Assembly (NCBI RefSeq): GCF_000174435.1
Contig: NZ_ACJN02000001.1
Coordinates: forward strand, 1,167,658 to 1,231,657
Direction: 5' to 3'
DNA: 64,000 nt
Source: Desulfonatronospira thiodismutans ASO3-1
GTDB taxonomy: Bacteria; Desulfobacterota; Desulfovibrionia; Desulfovibrionales; Desulfonatronovibrionaceae
Shown here: positions 12,337 to 34,275 of the stretch, in pieces
Position numbering within the stretch: the stretch's first letter is position 1
Layout: every line of letters begins with the position of its first letter
Notes under the pieces: generated by a model
The model's database searches: none
What the model was told of the DNA's origin: nothing
What the model saw: the letters and a program-made list of their open reading frames with translations, nothing else
Position numbers and translations under genes: made by a program

Positions 12337-12473
12337 AAATATAAAGCAAGCACACTGTTTTCTTGGAAAGTCAAAATTTCCGGTGTAACACCTCAAATTT
12401 ATTGCATTTTTCTTAGTTCCAGCTGTGCAGATGCATTCAGGATATAACTATCTGAAACTACAAGTCTTTTTTC

Positions 12474-12578
12474 TCAACCTATTATGCTTACTCCATATTC
12501 TTTAAATACTGGATCCTGAGTTACGACAGGCATTGCATAAAAAAAAGCACTGGCAATAATCATCCGGTCAAACGGGTG
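12474..12578 (-). pseudogene. C-terminal fragment of a PIN (VapC-like) toxin gene
   Basis: The 34 residues HPFDRMIIASAFFYAMPVVT... followed by DPVFKEYGVSIIG match the end of VapC-type PIN domains, where (H)PFDR carries a catalytic Asp and T.DP..Y the last strand. The frame runs straight on into the mini-hairpin repeat at 12579, which replaces the N-terminal two-thirds of the domain. The junction falls within KHP, which the repeat itself could encode (GCACCCG). The toxin is inactive as it stands. Confidence 0.7.
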
Positions 12579-13138
12579 CTTTGCACACACGGTTTTGAAG
12601 AATAAAGAGACCAAACAGCCTGCCAGGCATGACGCCCTGTAGGACAGGCACCACTCTTCAACAGTGAGCGGCAAAGCCGCCCGTGTGCAACGAAGTTGCC
12701 CGTGCCAAAAAAAAATCTTCTCTGGCACGGGAAGCCTTCAGGCTTCACACGGGTGCTTTGCACACACGGTTTTGAAGAATAAAGAGACCTGAAAGGGGTT
12801 GCCTGCTTGGCTGGTCATGACAGACGTTACTCCCCAACCGTGAGCGGCAAAGCCGCCCGCTCGCCCCGTGAAACAGACTTTTGTCTCCGCGTAGCGGGTT
12901 TCACCGGGGTGTGCAACGAAGTTGCCAGCCTGTCACGCCTATGGCGTGATTGAATAGCTCAAAGAGCTAGCCCGCAGGGCATTCAACTGGGGTGCCAAAA
13001 AAATCTTCTCTGGCACGGGAAGCTTGCAGGCTTCCCGAGCCAGTGTTGTTGCGGGGACTGTCCCAATTGGGATATATGCACGTCTTTATCTTAACAAACA
13101 ACAGATAACAGATAACTGGGTTGCGGGCGTAGCCCGCG
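12579..13138. repeat. Mini-hairpin repeat mosaic
   Basis: It repeats the 10.3-10.8 kb modules (GCGGCAAAGCCGC, GCAACGAAGTTGC, the GGCACGGGAAGC end) plus AATAGCTCAAAGAGCTAG. Its right part, from about 13002, is a colinear copy of 10675-10811 at an offset of exactly 2327 bp that continues through the neighbouring antitoxin-like gene. There is no credible gene inside. Confidence 0.75.
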
Positions 13139-22655: not shown

Positions 22656-23150
22656 CGGTTGTCCTCCTTATGGTTTGGTCACCGATAGTACCCCAGGCCC
22701 TCAAATTTTTCACGCAGGCTTGCCGGAAAGACACAAAAAACCTGCTAATTGCGCTTTAACAATGCTTTGGCCACTATAATTCTATGACCTTGCAGGCTGG
22801 GCAATCGTCACCCAGGTACTTTTGTCCCTGGGGCTGGAAATTTATATTTTCCCTTTGTTCTCCACAATAATCCGGCGGACTATATTCCCCCCATGCTGGT
22901 ACTGCCCTCCCTGGTGGTATAGACGTATCTTCACACTCCGCGCTTGACGCGATATGTGAAGATGATGTTTACATTTCGCGTTTGACGCGATGTGTGAAGA
23001 TGATCGTCGTCTCTTTTTGCGGCCAATGACACCAACGCCATGACCCTGCCCCACTCGGAAGGCCGGAAATTATCTATATGGATAATTTACCAAACAACCC
23101 AGCGCAGCAGGCCGTATGCTCAGGAGCGTAAGGACTTCTGATAATCAGGT

Positions 23151-23345
23151 TTATGCTGGAAATTTGTCCAGGCCAAGAGCAATGGGCCTGATCAAGTTTA
23201 TTCATCTGCGCAGGGCTCAGCGTCCCGATAAAATCGCCGAGCATGCTTTTGGGAATGCTGACCAGCTCATCACAATGGATGCTGCAGCCATGTTTTAGTC
23301 CATTGTCTATTCATGCAGGTACTTGTGTGGAAAGCCCATGGTACG
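23151..23345 (-). pseudogene. mazF/pemK 3'-fragment, copy 1 (frameshifted)
   Basis: Homologous to the fragment at 24859-25077 but with a short deletion near 23180, where CGATGGACAGTG has become CAATGGG, which breaks the frame near the C-terminus. The N-terminal half of the toxin is missing. Confidence 0.6.
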
Positions 23346-23966
23346 CAGAATAAACAGGAGCCCAGATTGCGGTGGAAAAACGGGAGTCCAGGAGTGCCTA
23401 ATAAAGAGACATCTTCACACTCCGCGCTTGACGCGATATGTAAAGATGATGTTTACATTTCGCGCTTGACGCGATGTGTAAAGATCCTCGTCGTCTCTTT
23501 TTGCGGTCAACGACACCAACGTCATGAACATGCTCCTTATTGAATCTGACAGCAGCCATACCCATAAATATCGCGCTTAAGGCTTAGATTGGGTTTTGGC
23601 CTCCCAGTTTTCTGACCATGCAGACAAGCAATCCTCCCACGAGCGCCTTTGTCCTTGAGGCTGGAGATTCCATCTTTCCCAGTTCTTAATAAAAATATCC
23701 AGCGCCCCATGCCGCCTTGTCCACCCACAGTAATAAAGAGACATCTTCACACTCCGCGCTTGACGCGATATGTAAAGATGATGTTTACATTTCGCGCTTG
23801 ACGCGATGTGTGAAAATCATCGTTGTCTCTTTTTGCGGCCAATGACACCAACGCCATGACCACGCCCCACTCGGAAGGCCGGCCAGTATCTATATGGATA
23901 TTTTACCGAACAACCCAGCGCAGCCGGCCGTATGCTCAGGAGCGTAAGGACTGCTGATAATCAGGT

Positions 23967-24160
23967 TTATGCTGGATATTTGTCCAGGCCAAGAGCGATT
24001 AACAGTGCCTGATCAAGTTTATTAATCTGCGCAGGGCTCAGCGTCCCGATAAAATCGCTGAGCATGCGTTTGGGAATACTGACCAGCTCATCACAATGGA
24101 TGCTGCGGTCATGTTTTAGTCCATTGTCTATTCCTGCAGGTACTTGTGTGGAAAGCCCAT
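23967..24160 (-). pseudogene. mazF/pemK 3'-fragment, copy 2
   Basis: The frame reads [19 protein letters not shown]...[24 protein letters not shown] and stops normally, so the C-terminal 55-60 residues of a MazF-like toxin are intact. No start or N-terminal barrel is present. Confidence 0.6.
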
Positions 24161-24690
24161 GGTACGCTGAATAAACAGGAGCGTAGATTGCTGTGGAAAA
24201 AATGGGAGTTCAGGAGTGCCTAATAAAGAGACATCTTCACACTCCGCGCTTGACGCGATGTGTAAAGATGATGTTTACATTTCGCGCTTGACGCAATGTG
24301 TAAAGATCCTCGTCGTCTCTTTTTGCGGCCAATGACACCAACGTCATGAACATGCTCCTTATAGAATCTGACAGCAGCCATACCCATAAATATCGCGCTT
24401 AAGGCTTAGATTGGGTTTTGGCCTCCCAGTTTTCTGACCATGCAGACAAGCTTCATCCTCCCACGAACGCCTTTGTCCTTGAGGCTGGAGATTTCATCTT
24501 TCCCAGTTCTTAATAAAAATATCCAGCGCCCCATGCCGCCTTGTCCACCATGGTAATAAAGAGACATCTTCACACTCCGCGCTTGACGCGATATGTAAAG
24601 ATGATGTTTACATTTCGCGCTTGACGCAAAGTGTGAAGATCATCATCGTCTCTTTTTGCGGCCAATGACACCAACGCCATGACCCTGCCC

Positions 24691-24752
24691 GTAACCATTC
24701 AGGGGGCAGATAACGGCCATCAGCCACCACCGAGGTCCCCCTGAATGGTTAC
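24691..24752. repeat. 62-bp MITE-like element with 7-bp target duplication
   Basis: GTAACCATTCAGGGG at the left mirrors CCCCTGAATGGTTAC at the right (15 of 15). CCTGCCC flanks it on both sides. The same site in the other array copies is empty, which proves insertion. Confidence 0.8.
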
Positions 24753-24858
24753 CCTGCCCCACTCGGAAGGCCGGGATTTATCTATATGGATATTTTACAG
24801 AACAACCCAGCGCAGCAGGCCGTATGCTAAGGAGCGTAAGGACTTCTGATAATCAGGT

Positions 24859-25077
24859 TTATGCTGGAAATTTGTCCAGGCCAAGAGCGATGGACAGTGC
24901 CTGATCAAGTTTATTCATCTGCGCAGGTCTCAGCGTCCCGATAAAATCGCTGAGCATGCTTTTGGGAATACTGACCAGCTCATCACAATGGATGCTACAG
25001 TCATATTTTAGTCCATTGTCTATTCCTGCAGGTACTTGTGTGGAAAGCCCAAGGTACGCAGTAACAAACAGGAGCAC
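24859..25077 (-). pseudogene. mazF/pemK 3'-fragment, copy 3
   Basis: The C-terminal part, [20 protein letters not shown] then [15 protein letters not shown], is the second half of a MazF/PemK endoribonuclease: the conserved VP....NGL and (N/H)CDE.....K segments. The N-terminal residues that carry the catalytic GDI/V and the RNA site are absent, and only about ten unrelated residues precede the match. It would not be a functional toxin. A fourth copy (25521-25570) is broken off near IS66 element 2. Confidence 0.65.
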
Positions 25078-25249
25078 AGAATGCGGTGGAAAAACGGGAG
25101 TCCAGGAGTGCCTAATATAGAGACATCTTTACACTCCGCGCTTGACGCGATATGTAAAGATGATGTTTACATTTCGCGCTTGACGCGATGTGTAAAGATC
25201 CTCGTCGTCTCTTTTTGCGGCCAACGACACCAACGCCATGATCCTGCCC

Positions 25250-31706: not shown

Positions 31707-31771
31707 GAGCAGGTGAGGGTGTGAGGGTGAGTGTGAGGTTCTTCGTCCTCGTTTTTCGTTCTTCGTTAGCC

Positions 31772-31839
31772 TACACTCCGCGCTTGACGCGATATGTAAA
31801 GATGATGTTTACATTTCGCGCTTGACGCGAAGTGTAAAG
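31772..31839. repeat. REP doublet
   Basis: Two CGCG-CTTGA-CGCG hairpins in the same orientation, 38 bp apart, with the right arm of the first (TGTAAA) complementary to the left arm of the second (TTTACA). Confidence 0.85.
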
Positions 31840-31881
31840 GAATTCATCAATCATGTTCAATAAGACTATCTCTGCCCATTG

Positions 31882-32060: not shown

Positions 32061-32069
32061 AGGTGAATC

Positions 32070-32144
32070 ATCTTCACACATCGCGTTTGTCGCAATATGT
32101 AAAGATGATGTTTACATTTGGCGCTTGACGCGATGTGTAAAGAT
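32070..32144. repeat. REP doublet after a glycosyltransferase fragment
   Basis: Two hairpin units of the family; the first has the variant loop TTTGT and the second the standard CTTGA. Confidence 0.85.
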
Positions 32145-32225
32145 GATCGTCGTTTTTTTCTGCAGCCAATGACATAAACTCCATTGTCCAGATTTTTGTA
32201 AGATTGCCCCGCCGTGGATCGTAGT

Positions 32226-32735
32226 AGTCTGGCGGTTGGCCCCGGTCAAGGGCCTGGATGTGCTCCTGGAAGCCTTCCGGCAGATCGCGGGCAAGACCGC
32301 AGCGCACTTAGTCCTGCTGGGCTACGGTCCGCTCAGGCCGAGGCTGAAATCCATGACCCGGGAGCTGGGGCTGGCCGGGCGGGTGCATTTTCCCGGGTTC
32401 CAGGACACCCCCTAACCTGGATGCGCGAGGCAACGCTGCTGGCCCTGCCTTCCCGGCATGAAGGGCTGCCCACTGTACTCATCGAGGCCCTGGACTGCGG
32501 CACCCAGATCGTGGCCACGGACTGCCCTGGCGGCTTGGCGGAAATCCAGGAAGATGGCAAATACGGTCACATTCGTGCCTGTGGAAGACCCCACAACCCT
32601 GGCCCAGACCATGCTTAGCAACCTTAACGGCACTTTCCATGTGCCCTCCGAAACCATCACAAGGCCCGGGCCGAAGATTTCACCGTTGAAAATGCCGAAA
32701 AGCAGTATATGGAAACATTGCTTGGCAAAATATAG
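32226..32735 (+). pseudogene. Frameshifted GT4 glycosyltransferase fragment
   Basis: Three frames together give a glycosyltransferase half: RLAPVKGLDVLLEAFRQIAG with LGYGPLRPRL and VHFPGFQDTP, then after a stop ATLLALPSRHEGLPTVLIEA and GTQIVATDCPGG, then after a shift VPVEDPTTLAQTML and finally EDFTVENAEKQYMETLLGKI with a natural TAG. The conserved nucleotide-sugar segments (E-x7-E region EGLPTVLIEA) are visible. Multiple frame breaks make it a pseudogene. A REP starts 6 bp after the stop. Confidence 0.75.
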
Positions 32736-32740
32736 CCCTC

Positions 32741-32786
32741 ATCTTTACACCTCGCGCTTGACGCGATATGCGCGATATGTGAAGAT
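32741..32786. repeat. Single REP unit after the glycosyltransferase stop codon
   Basis: One hairpin with an internal repeat of CGCGATATG that lengthens its right arm. It begins 6 bp past the TAG. Confidence 0.8.
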
Positions 32787-32809
32787 GTTCTTCTTCTCCG
32801 CGGCTAAAA

Positions 32810-32915
32810 CAGCACTTTCCGCGTCGCCCCCGAAATACTCAAGACCCGAACCGAGGATTTCACTGTAGAAAAGGCCACAAAGCAGTATAGGGGCACCCTG
32901 CCTGGCAAAATATGA
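32810..32915 (+). pseudogene. Duplicate of the glycosyltransferase 3' end
   Basis: This 106-bp stretch is a diverged copy of the last 106 bp of the glycosyltransferase pseudogene at an offset of 180 bp: TEDFTVEKATKQYRGTLPGK against AEDFTVENAEKQYMETLLGK, again ending in a stop and again followed within 7 bp by a REP. Confidence 0.7.
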
Positions 32916-32921
32916 CCCATC

Positions 32922-32958
32922 ATCTTCACACCTCGCGCTTGACGCGATGTGTAAAGAT
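32922..32958. repeat. REP unit directly upstream of the RAYT gene
   Basis: A well-formed palindrome: outer arms ATCTTCACA / TGTAAAGAT, inner CGCG / CGCG, loop CTTGA. It ends 17 bp before the transposase start. Confidence 0.9.
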
Positions 32959-32975
32959 GTGGCAGTTATTTTGAT

Positions 32976-33908
32976 GTGAAGTACAGCGACAAAAGGTTCT
33001 GCGGAAATGAACAGCGGATTTTCAGGGCCAGGTACAAGATCACTGAGCCCGGGGTTATCTCCCATGTCACCCAGCGTGCAGCAGGCAAAGAGCCGCTGTT
33101 TATTGATGATACTGATTATCTGACCATGCTGATGCTGCTAAAGGAAAGCGTGGAAAAGTTTGATCTGCGCTATTATGCCTTGAGTCTTATGTCTAATCAC
33201 ATACATATTTTGCTGGAACCCCGGGAAAATAATCTGCCTGAAGCAATGCGCTCCATATTTTCAAGGTATGCAGCCAAATTCAATACAAAGTACCAGCGAA
33301 AGGGTCATCTTTTCGGTGGACCTTACCGTCAGTCAGTATGCCTGGACAATACTTATCTGCTCACAGCTTCACTATACATCCACCTGAATCCTGTCCGCGC
33401 CGGTATAGTGGATAAGACGGATGCATACAGATGGTCCTCGGCATCATTGTATTGTAATGAATCCGATGTGGAATCCTTTGTTGACCCCGGGGTTGTATTG
33501 CGCCTGGTTCATGACCAGGAACCCGAAGCCCGAAAGAATTACTGCCGAATGCTTGAGCAGGCCCACGGGCATGAGCCGGAAAACGCTCTTGAGCATGAGG
33601 GGGCTATTGAAAAATTCTGTATCCGCCTGTCTCAAATTTTTCCAAGGTTGTTTAAAAAGCTGGGCAAAAAAACCGAAAATACAGAAAAGTACCTTGGATG
33701 CAATGCATCTATGCTGGATCTGACCCGGCTTGATCAGGCCATTGAAAATACCGACTTCAGCCGTTCCTGGTCCATGGAAAGCAGGAAGGCCAAGAAGTAT
33801 ATAGTGGAACAATTATTGGCCAGGGGATTTAAGAAGACCGAGATAGCCGGGCGGTTGGGGATTTCACGCATGTCAGTATACAATATTCTCAATTCTCATT
33901 GTGATTAA
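32976..33908 (+). CDS. REP-associated tyrosine transposase (RAYT, Y1/HUH type)
   Basis: The 310-residue protein has the Y1_Tnp core: ITEPGVISHVTQRAAGKEPLF, the metal-binding SNHIHILLEP motif (HUH-like) near residue 75, then KGHLFGGPYRQSVC and SLYIHLNPVRAGIV with the presumed catalytic tyrosine. The C-terminal 60 residues carry an added helix-turn-helix (GFKKTEIAGRLGISRMSVYNIL). RAYTs are single-strand nucleases that act on REP hairpins. GTG 32976 is the start because the frame closes upstream at 32954. REP units lie 17 bp before and 9 bp after it, so this is the likely source of the REP family here. Intact. Confidence 0.9.
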   Translation: MKYSDKRFCGNEQRIFRARYKITEPGVISHVTQRAAGKEPLFIDDTDYLTMLMLLKESVEKFDLRYYALSLMSNHIHILLEPRENNLPEAMRSIFSRYAAKFNTKYQRKGHLFGGPYRQSVCLDNTYLLTASLYIHLNPVRAGIVDKTDAYRWSSASLYCNESDVESFVDPGVVLRLVHDQEPEARKNYCRMLEQAHGHEPENALEHEGAIEKFCIRLSQIFPRLFKKLGKKTENTEKYLGCNASMLDLTRLDQAIENTDFSRSWSMESRKAKKYIVEQLLARGFKKTEIAGRLGISRMSVYNILNSHCD

Positions 33909-33917
33909 CAGACAAAC

Positions 33918-33992
33918 ATCTTTACACTTCGCGCTTGACGCAATTTGTAAAGATGATGTTTACATTTCGCGCTTGACGCAAAGTGTGAAGAT
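33918..33992. repeat. REP doublet directly downstream of the RAYT gene
   Basis: Two same-orientation units 38 bp apart, starting 9 bp after the transposase stop. The palindromes are slightly degenerate (CGCAATTTG and CGCAAAGTG right arms). Confidence 0.9.
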
Positions 33993-34044
33993 ATCATGAG
34001 TATAAAAAGTTGGTTTACAATGTTAGTCCACAGGAGTACATGCC

Positions 34045-34275
34045 ATGATGGTCAATGTTCATGAAGCAAAAACCAATTTTTCGAACCTGTTGGAAATGGC
34101 TCACGCAGGACAGGAAATCATCCTGGCCAAGTCTGGAAAACCCTATGCCCTTTTGACTCCTCTTCCTTCAGGTGGGGTGGCTCAGCGCAAGCCCGGACGG
34201 CTGCCTGGCAAGGTTACGGAATCCTTTTTTGAACCTTTGCCAGAAGAAGAAATTGCCGCCTGGGAGAGGACGTGA
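34045..34275 (+). CDS. Phd/YefM-type antitoxin
   Basis: The 76-residue product starts MMVNVHEAKTNFSNLLEMAH and contains the GQEIILAKSGKPYALLTP loop, the Phd/YefM fold, then a proline/acidic tail that would bind a toxin. Its TGA overlaps a GTG start of a vapC gene, but that toxin gene is broken. If expressed it is an antitoxin without a functional partner here. Confidence 0.85.
   Translation: MMVNVHEAKTNFSNLLEMAHAGQEIILAKSGKPYALLTPLPSGGVAQRKPGRLPGKVTESFFEPLPEEEIAAWERT

Follow-up and report, generated by a model that had tools for sequence, protein, structure and literature searches.

Desulfonatronospira thiodismutans ASO3-1 carries a gene for a Y1/HUH transposase that is bracketed by imperfect palindromes of its own, and among the relatives compared, the copy number of these palindromes depends on the presence of the gene. 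Such flanking palindromes are a feature of a clade that extends across the phylum Desulfobacterota. We consider it probable that gene and palindromes together constitute a REPtron-like element belonging to a branch of the TnpA_Y1 superfamily that bears a helix-turn-helix (HTH), the HUH core of which would bind and nick the hairpins and thereby spread the palindromes and sometimes the gene. All positions given below are numbered within the window, that is, the whole stretch of 64,000 nucleotides that was analyzed.

The transposase (310 amino acids) is encoded on the plus strand by an uninterrupted open reading frame (positions 32976-33908). Its GTG start codon is supported by the counterpart in another genus (G010), which has ATG at the matching position. 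The protein matches the Pfam family Y1_Tnp (E = 3e-7) and contains both hallmark motifs, the HUH motif in the form of NHIH (residues 74-77) and a putative catalytic tyrosine, Tyr134, within YIHLNP. For an AlphaFold model built with 18 relatives (mean pLDDT 78; an earlier model with 13 sequences had a pLDDT of 55 and was not used), the top solved structure was 4er8, E. coli TnpA_REP with a REP hairpin (Foldseek E = 3.8e-5), with a Z score of 16.6 for 160 of 165 residues at 2.8 Å, while IS608 scored lower (Z 13.6). The preliminary description of an intact Y1/HUH transposase is thus borne out by reading frame, motifs, Pfam match and fold, and the C-terminal HTH that it had mentioned is confirmed by matches to HTH_23, HTH_7 and HTH_28 (residues 279-307, positions 33810-33899 on the plus strand). 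The model has helices in this region (residues 267-306). Among 13 clade members, domain profiles detected HTH_23 in 11 and HTH_28 in eight; the Bac_DnaA_C profile did not match the HTH of the clade and did match in a Legionella relative. A sequence search of the PDB with the transposase returned just weak resolvase-like HTH matches. REP_Tyr_transpos of NCBIfam was the model matched by 12 of 13 relatives, and the transposase itself reached 57 bits, which is below the equivalog cut-off of 80 bits.

The bracketing of the gene by its own palindromes, as originally proposed, is evident. Upstream lies a palindrome of 39 nt (32921-32959), which on the minus strand forms the hairpin CATCTTTACACATCGCG-TCAAG-CGCGAGGTGTGAAGATG, and downstream lies a doublet (33917-33993) of two minus-strand palindromes (33917-33955 and 33955-33993) that follow each other in the same orientation with a step of 38 nt. 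Spacings had been given as 17 and 9 bp; we measured 16 nt between the end of the upstream palindrome and the start codon and 8 nt between the stop codon and the doublet. The core originally reported as CGCG-CTTGA-CGCG needs to be corrected to GCGCTTGACGC, since the two palindromes of the doublet have CGCG-CTTGA-CGCA, with CGCA instead of CGCG on the right. Folding of the upstream hairpin yielded z scores of -6.7 for the minus and -5.5 for the plus strand. No T run is present at the downstream doublet. A short open reading frame 3' of it (34045-34275) resembles, by eye, an antitoxin of the Phd/YefM type, and at one locus in another genome (G006, L108) the doublet is followed by the same downstream sequence as in the window, with no transposase on its other side.

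In total, the window harbors 20 palindromes, i.e., nine doublets and two single copies, which goes beyond those listed earlier. Their loop orientation is identical throughout and all doublets are direct. Apart from those next to the gene, they comprise a copy with an internal insertion of 9 nt, located where a glycosyltransferase fragment ends (32740-32787), a doublet at 32069-32145, a doublet with partly lost outer arms at 31766-31842, and six doublets (22926-23002, 23410-23486, 23742-23818, 24232-24308, 24565-24641 and 25124-25200), all of them read on the minus strand. The latter six reside in tandemly duplicated segments of 330-560 bp (22926-25200). When up to two mismatches were allowed, the 13-mer core was matched 25 times in the window compared to an expectation of 0.69 and a maximum of 3 in 100 shuffles. 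Most doublets of the array are enclosed by an outer inverted repeat, AAAGAGAC...GTCTCTTT, after which comes a run of T; this arrangement could form a larger stem or a terminator. We also considered REPs tagged with CGTC, and rejected the idea: CGTC follows some doublets (in the array at 22.9-25.2 kb and at 32.1 kb), is part of the flank derived from the glycosyltransferase and is missing from other copies. The arm CTTTACACA (e.g., in 32921-32959) is one position off the DnaA box TT[AT]TNCACA and the arm TTTTGCACA from G015 matches it fully, a likeness that may be due to chance.

On the minus strand, the palindromes conform to the consensus CATCTTTACA(C/T)(A/T)TCGCG-TCAAR-CGCGAARTGTAAAGATG, and conservation fades within one to two bases outside the hairpin. 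The structure of the stem is under selection and has undergone compensatory changes: 93.8% of the cells are paired, seven of 16 pairs have changed on both sides, and the covariation score is 0.271 compared to 0.118 +/- 0.014 in shuffles. An asymmetric tip, TCAAR or TCCGG, is conserved together with a mismatch close to it. A GT[AG]G foot was found at the hairpin base in none of 33 copies and within 12 nt in two of them. A covariance model located about 40 genomic places, some of related types included, and the copies are extragenic, with only three out of 34 falling within open reading frames of at least 150 amino acids as compared to 67% of random positions. Repeated units of 281 bp with one palindrome each (L070:5395-5960 and 12463-13050 in G000; single places in G010) represent a composite repeat family. 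Several doublets in G010 and G006 (L099, L103, L106, L110 and L111) are inverted, unlike the direct doublets of the window.

How closely the palindromes are tied to the gene was assessed in 61 relatives, 11 of which contain the gene and 50 of which do not. At least eight matches to the palindrome model were present in five of the 11 gene-bearing genomes and in none of the 50 others (p = 8e-5); within the family, the respective numbers are five of six and none of 12 (p = 7e-4). These p values serve as a guide because a palindrome is scored by the model on each of its strands and because the genomes compared, being related, are not independent. Equal abundance of the palindromes in relatives lacking the transposase had been named as an observation that would speak against the proposal, and the picture is different: genomes without the gene yield zero to three matches each, and all five genomes with at least eight are gene-bearing. 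Palindrome copy number thus depends on gene presence. Gene-bearing genomes without model matches mostly have variant palindromes of their own beside the gene, such as TGCACACAACGCG-TCAAA-CGCGATATGTGCA in G015 and ATTACCCGTTTTGCG-TCAAG-CGCGATATGTGTAAT in G018.

A similar picture emerges across the Desulfobacterota. As judged by eye from flank scans, 16 of the 17 relatives whose flanks could be read have palindromes beside the gene, and in 13 of the 14 cases in which two flanks can be read they lie on both sides, the exception among the genes with full flanks being that of G027, which has no palindrome upstream. In six relatives from other families, with proteins of 45-54% identity, and also in G022, palindromes lie to either side of the gene at comparable places, examples being TTTTACCCATTTCGTGC-tat-GCAAGAAATGGGTAAAA and TTTTTACCCATTTCAGC-TCAA-AGCACTTTTGGGTAAA. 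The palindromes on the two flanks are imperfect and mostly of one orientation (inverted in L135). In control intervals of 900 bp chosen at random, flanks had repeats in common in 6 of 361 cases. Flanking palindromes are accordingly a feature of the phylum-wide clade.

The present genome (G000) encodes three paralogous transposases that are 65-67% identical, each of which is accompanied by its own type of palindrome: type A with CATCTTTACA arms, type B, which occurs in inverted pairs, with TTGCACA arms, and type C with a TCCGG tip, the last being nearly confined to the neighborhood of its own gene. Each type matches that of the sister gene in another species, with identities of 0.85-0.91 to the sister-gene palindromes versus 0.64-0.82 within the genome. 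Arms therefore vary with the lineage of the transposase, through compensatory changes around a GC-TCAA-GC center. Protein and palindrome distances for nine loci are correlated (Mantel r = 0.53, p = 0.0009), a signal that originates from sister pairs only and so might indicate that gene and flank were inherited together, not recognition; with one gene per clade, r drops to 0.01 (p = 0.51), and a deep signal of co-evolution between arm and protein beyond the sister pairs is absent.

The layout had been called that of a classic RAYT, and this does not hold. The palindromes lack the GT[AG]G foot, alignment with E. coli RayT places F-G opposite the W-Q pair of its GTAG-reading region, the score for REP_Tyr_transpos stays below the cut-off, and the protein groups beside HTH-bearing TIRYT-type relatives. 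A core-domain tree, the deep order of which is unsure owing to some long branches, shows the clade as one branch (92/95) next to TIRYT-type relatives from plasmids and apart from both E. coli RayT and the subclass 2.3-like genes, of which this genome has multiple copies. About ten of the latter, closely similar to each other (NHFH, YVDLNP, 307-312 amino acids), occur here (loci L066, L065, L062, L067, L069 and L071), an unusually high load for class 2 TnpA_Y1. By its sequence, the transposase fits TnpA_Y1 subclass 2.1, which equals RAYT group 1 and is prevalent in delta-proteobacteria (PMC6006769), given that it has Y[IV]HLNP, an NH-u-H motif, an SS motif after the core and an HTH_23/HTH_28 tail. 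In the broad sense of a RAYT/REP system or REPtron, we found an intact HUH motif and tyrosine, dispersed and flanking palindromes, and extragenic copies. An earlier survey (Quentin et al. 2018; PMC6006769) searched the surroundings of subclass 2.1 genes both automatically and manually and retrieved no REP-like sequences, whereas in the clade studied here almost all genes have palindromes at their flanks. In the literature that we searched, no REP-like partners are described for the HTH-bearing branch; the nearest precedent are the terminal inverted repeats (TIRs) of TIRYTs, some of which are described as self-complementary and as forming moderately abundant families (Di Nocera et al. 2013; PMC3733652).

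Comparison with E. coli RAYT/TnpA_REP (RAYT group 2, subclass 2.2) reveals a shared HUH/Y1 fold, a gene of low copy number, dispersed extragenic palindromes and a conserved imperfection in the stem, but the system described here has neither the GT[AG]G foot nor the W-Q pair, possesses the additional C-terminal HTH, has direct instead of inverted doublets at the locus and comprises tens instead of hundreds of copies. With TIRYTs/TIRtrons it has in common the Y1 transposase and flanking repeats other than GTAG REPs; it differs in that these are long imperfect palindromes, mostly direct, with a GC-TCAA-GC center and no GGGGWSAS. Of six relatives that belong to other groups and reside on plasmids, four (R. 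rubrum, P. aeruginosa, Pseudoalteromonas and Acetoanaerobium) had short inverted repeats, of the GGGG[AT][CG]A[CG] type or similar, in agreement with the published TIRYT layout (PMC3733652). Elements of the IS200/IS605 family (IS608, ISDra2) resemble it in fold and in flanking hairpins on the same strand, the orientation of which is closer to IS200/IS605 ends than to REPINs; unlike them, it has no adjoining tnpB, no near-identical full copies, an HTH tail and dispersed solo palindromes.

Palindromes of this family sit at recombination breakpoints. A cassette of 1,179 bp, consisting of glycosyltransferase tail, palindrome, transposase gene and doublet, is 94.7% identical to its counterpart in G010, which belongs to another genus, whereas the adjoining glycosyltransferase body is 82% identical, and the cassette has therefore probably been exchanged later. 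The tail copy joined to the cassette (32840-32918, plus strand) is the second one in the window and 78% identical to the first (32660-32738). For the type B gene, homology between G000 and G015 starts at the outer upstream palindrome with no match further upstream. Doublets join differing combinations of flanks in this genome, G010 and G006, a gene remnant of 25 codons accompanies a doublet at C1:279.6k, another remnant exists in G010, and one palindrome (L101) has its two flanks on different contigs of G007, indicating a possible breakpoint. Permuted flanks are not proof of enzyme action because homologous recombination between copies could explain them as well. Two flank searches for clean empty sites of single palindromes returned just diverged or rearranged homologues, and the repeat-family loci L105 and L070 gave no clean insertion; insertion is deduced from unrelated flanks since the genomes compared are too diverged for a clean empty site. 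L061 was considered as such a site and dismissed, as it represents loss of a palindrome through deletion at a CTTT microhomology. When L061:9780-9990 is compared with 32069-32230 of the window, a doublet is seen fused to the glycosyltransferase coding sequence exactly where the gene itself reads ATGTGAAGATGATCGTC, a match of 11-12 nt to the palindrome arm, and this junction may stem from either microhomology joining or use of the gene as source of the arm.

How, then, could gene and palindromes be functionally connected? It is unlikely that we are dealing with an IS200/IS605-like insertion sequence, the left and right ends of which are the same-orientation hairpins, which moves as a whole gene and leaves the dispersed palindromes behind as remnants of its ends. 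The hairpins at the ends of IS608 have the same orientation, as do both flanks in most relatives, and the three divergent paralogues, the gene remnants at C1:279.6k and in G010 and the end of G000-B/G015-B homology at the outer palindrome would all suit such an element; however, near-identical full copies as expected for an active IS are absent within a genome, the dispersed palindromes outnumber the gene copies about tenfold and include doublets without any gene remnant, and the flanks of L135 are inverted. Rather improbable, too, is a role of the palindromes as duplex operators at which an HTH dimer represses its own promoter and other sites, so that they would not be substrates of the HUH core. 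Dyad symmetry, compensatory changes as also expected of two half-sites, the HTH in 11 of 13 members and the position of the upstream palindrome, roughly 10-60 nt from the start codon in most relatives and in some followed by a TATAAT-like or similar sequence (L135, L133), are in line with operators, but a symmetric duplex operator would need neither the conserved asymmetric tip nor the mismatch near it, and this role would leave unexplained why tens of copies are dispersed, why doublets lie downstream and why recombination occurs at the palindromes. We deem it highly improbable that the palindromes are passive repeats or terminators that were spread by homologous recombination and came to lie near the gene by chance or common history. 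Homologous exchange between copies would account for the permuted flanks and common descent could produce the sister-pair signal, but flanking palindromes recur beside 45-54% identical relatives in other families of the phylum, high copy number tracks the gene, and the downstream doublet lacks a T run.

For the REPtron-like element that we favor, we infer hairpin binding, nicking, choice of strand and the role of the HTH as follows. The Y1/HUH core would bind the imperfect palindrome as a single-stranded hairpin, most likely on the lagging-strand template. Since there is neither a GTAG guide nor a W-Q pair, recognition probably depends on the TTTACA arm and on the tip with its conserved GC-TCAAR-GC, which would be read in place of the GTAG foot. 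By homology to TnpA_REP and IS608, the hairpin would be nicked at its base through Tyr134, and nicking and strand transfer would bring palindromes, singly or in tandem, into intergenic DNA; now and then the gene would be carried along between the two hairpins that flank it in the same orientation. For the HTH, the probable target is the palindrome in duplex form, and it is our guess that the upstream palindrome may double as its operator. We put forward only tentatively the wider notion of a distinct, hitherto undescribed class of TnpA_Y1-palindrome systems across the Desulfobacterota that manages without a GTAG guide, reads the tip and a TTTAC-type arm, keeps its HTH on the duplex palindrome close to the promoter of its gene and nicks the extruded hairpin with the HUH core, bridges TIRYTs and RAYTs and has retained mobility of the gene.

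To our knowledge, biochemical studies exist only for GTAG-type systems from groups 2 and 3. The branch with the HTH is among the largest in the superfamily and was thought to be devoid of REP-like partners; because it was reported without such repeats, repeat spread now becomes testable in a new, differently built system. The three lineage-specific palindromes within one genome provide ready-made tests of specificity for the reading of hairpins without a GTAG guide, and the clade offers a hint at the relationship between TIR-type and REP-type elements.
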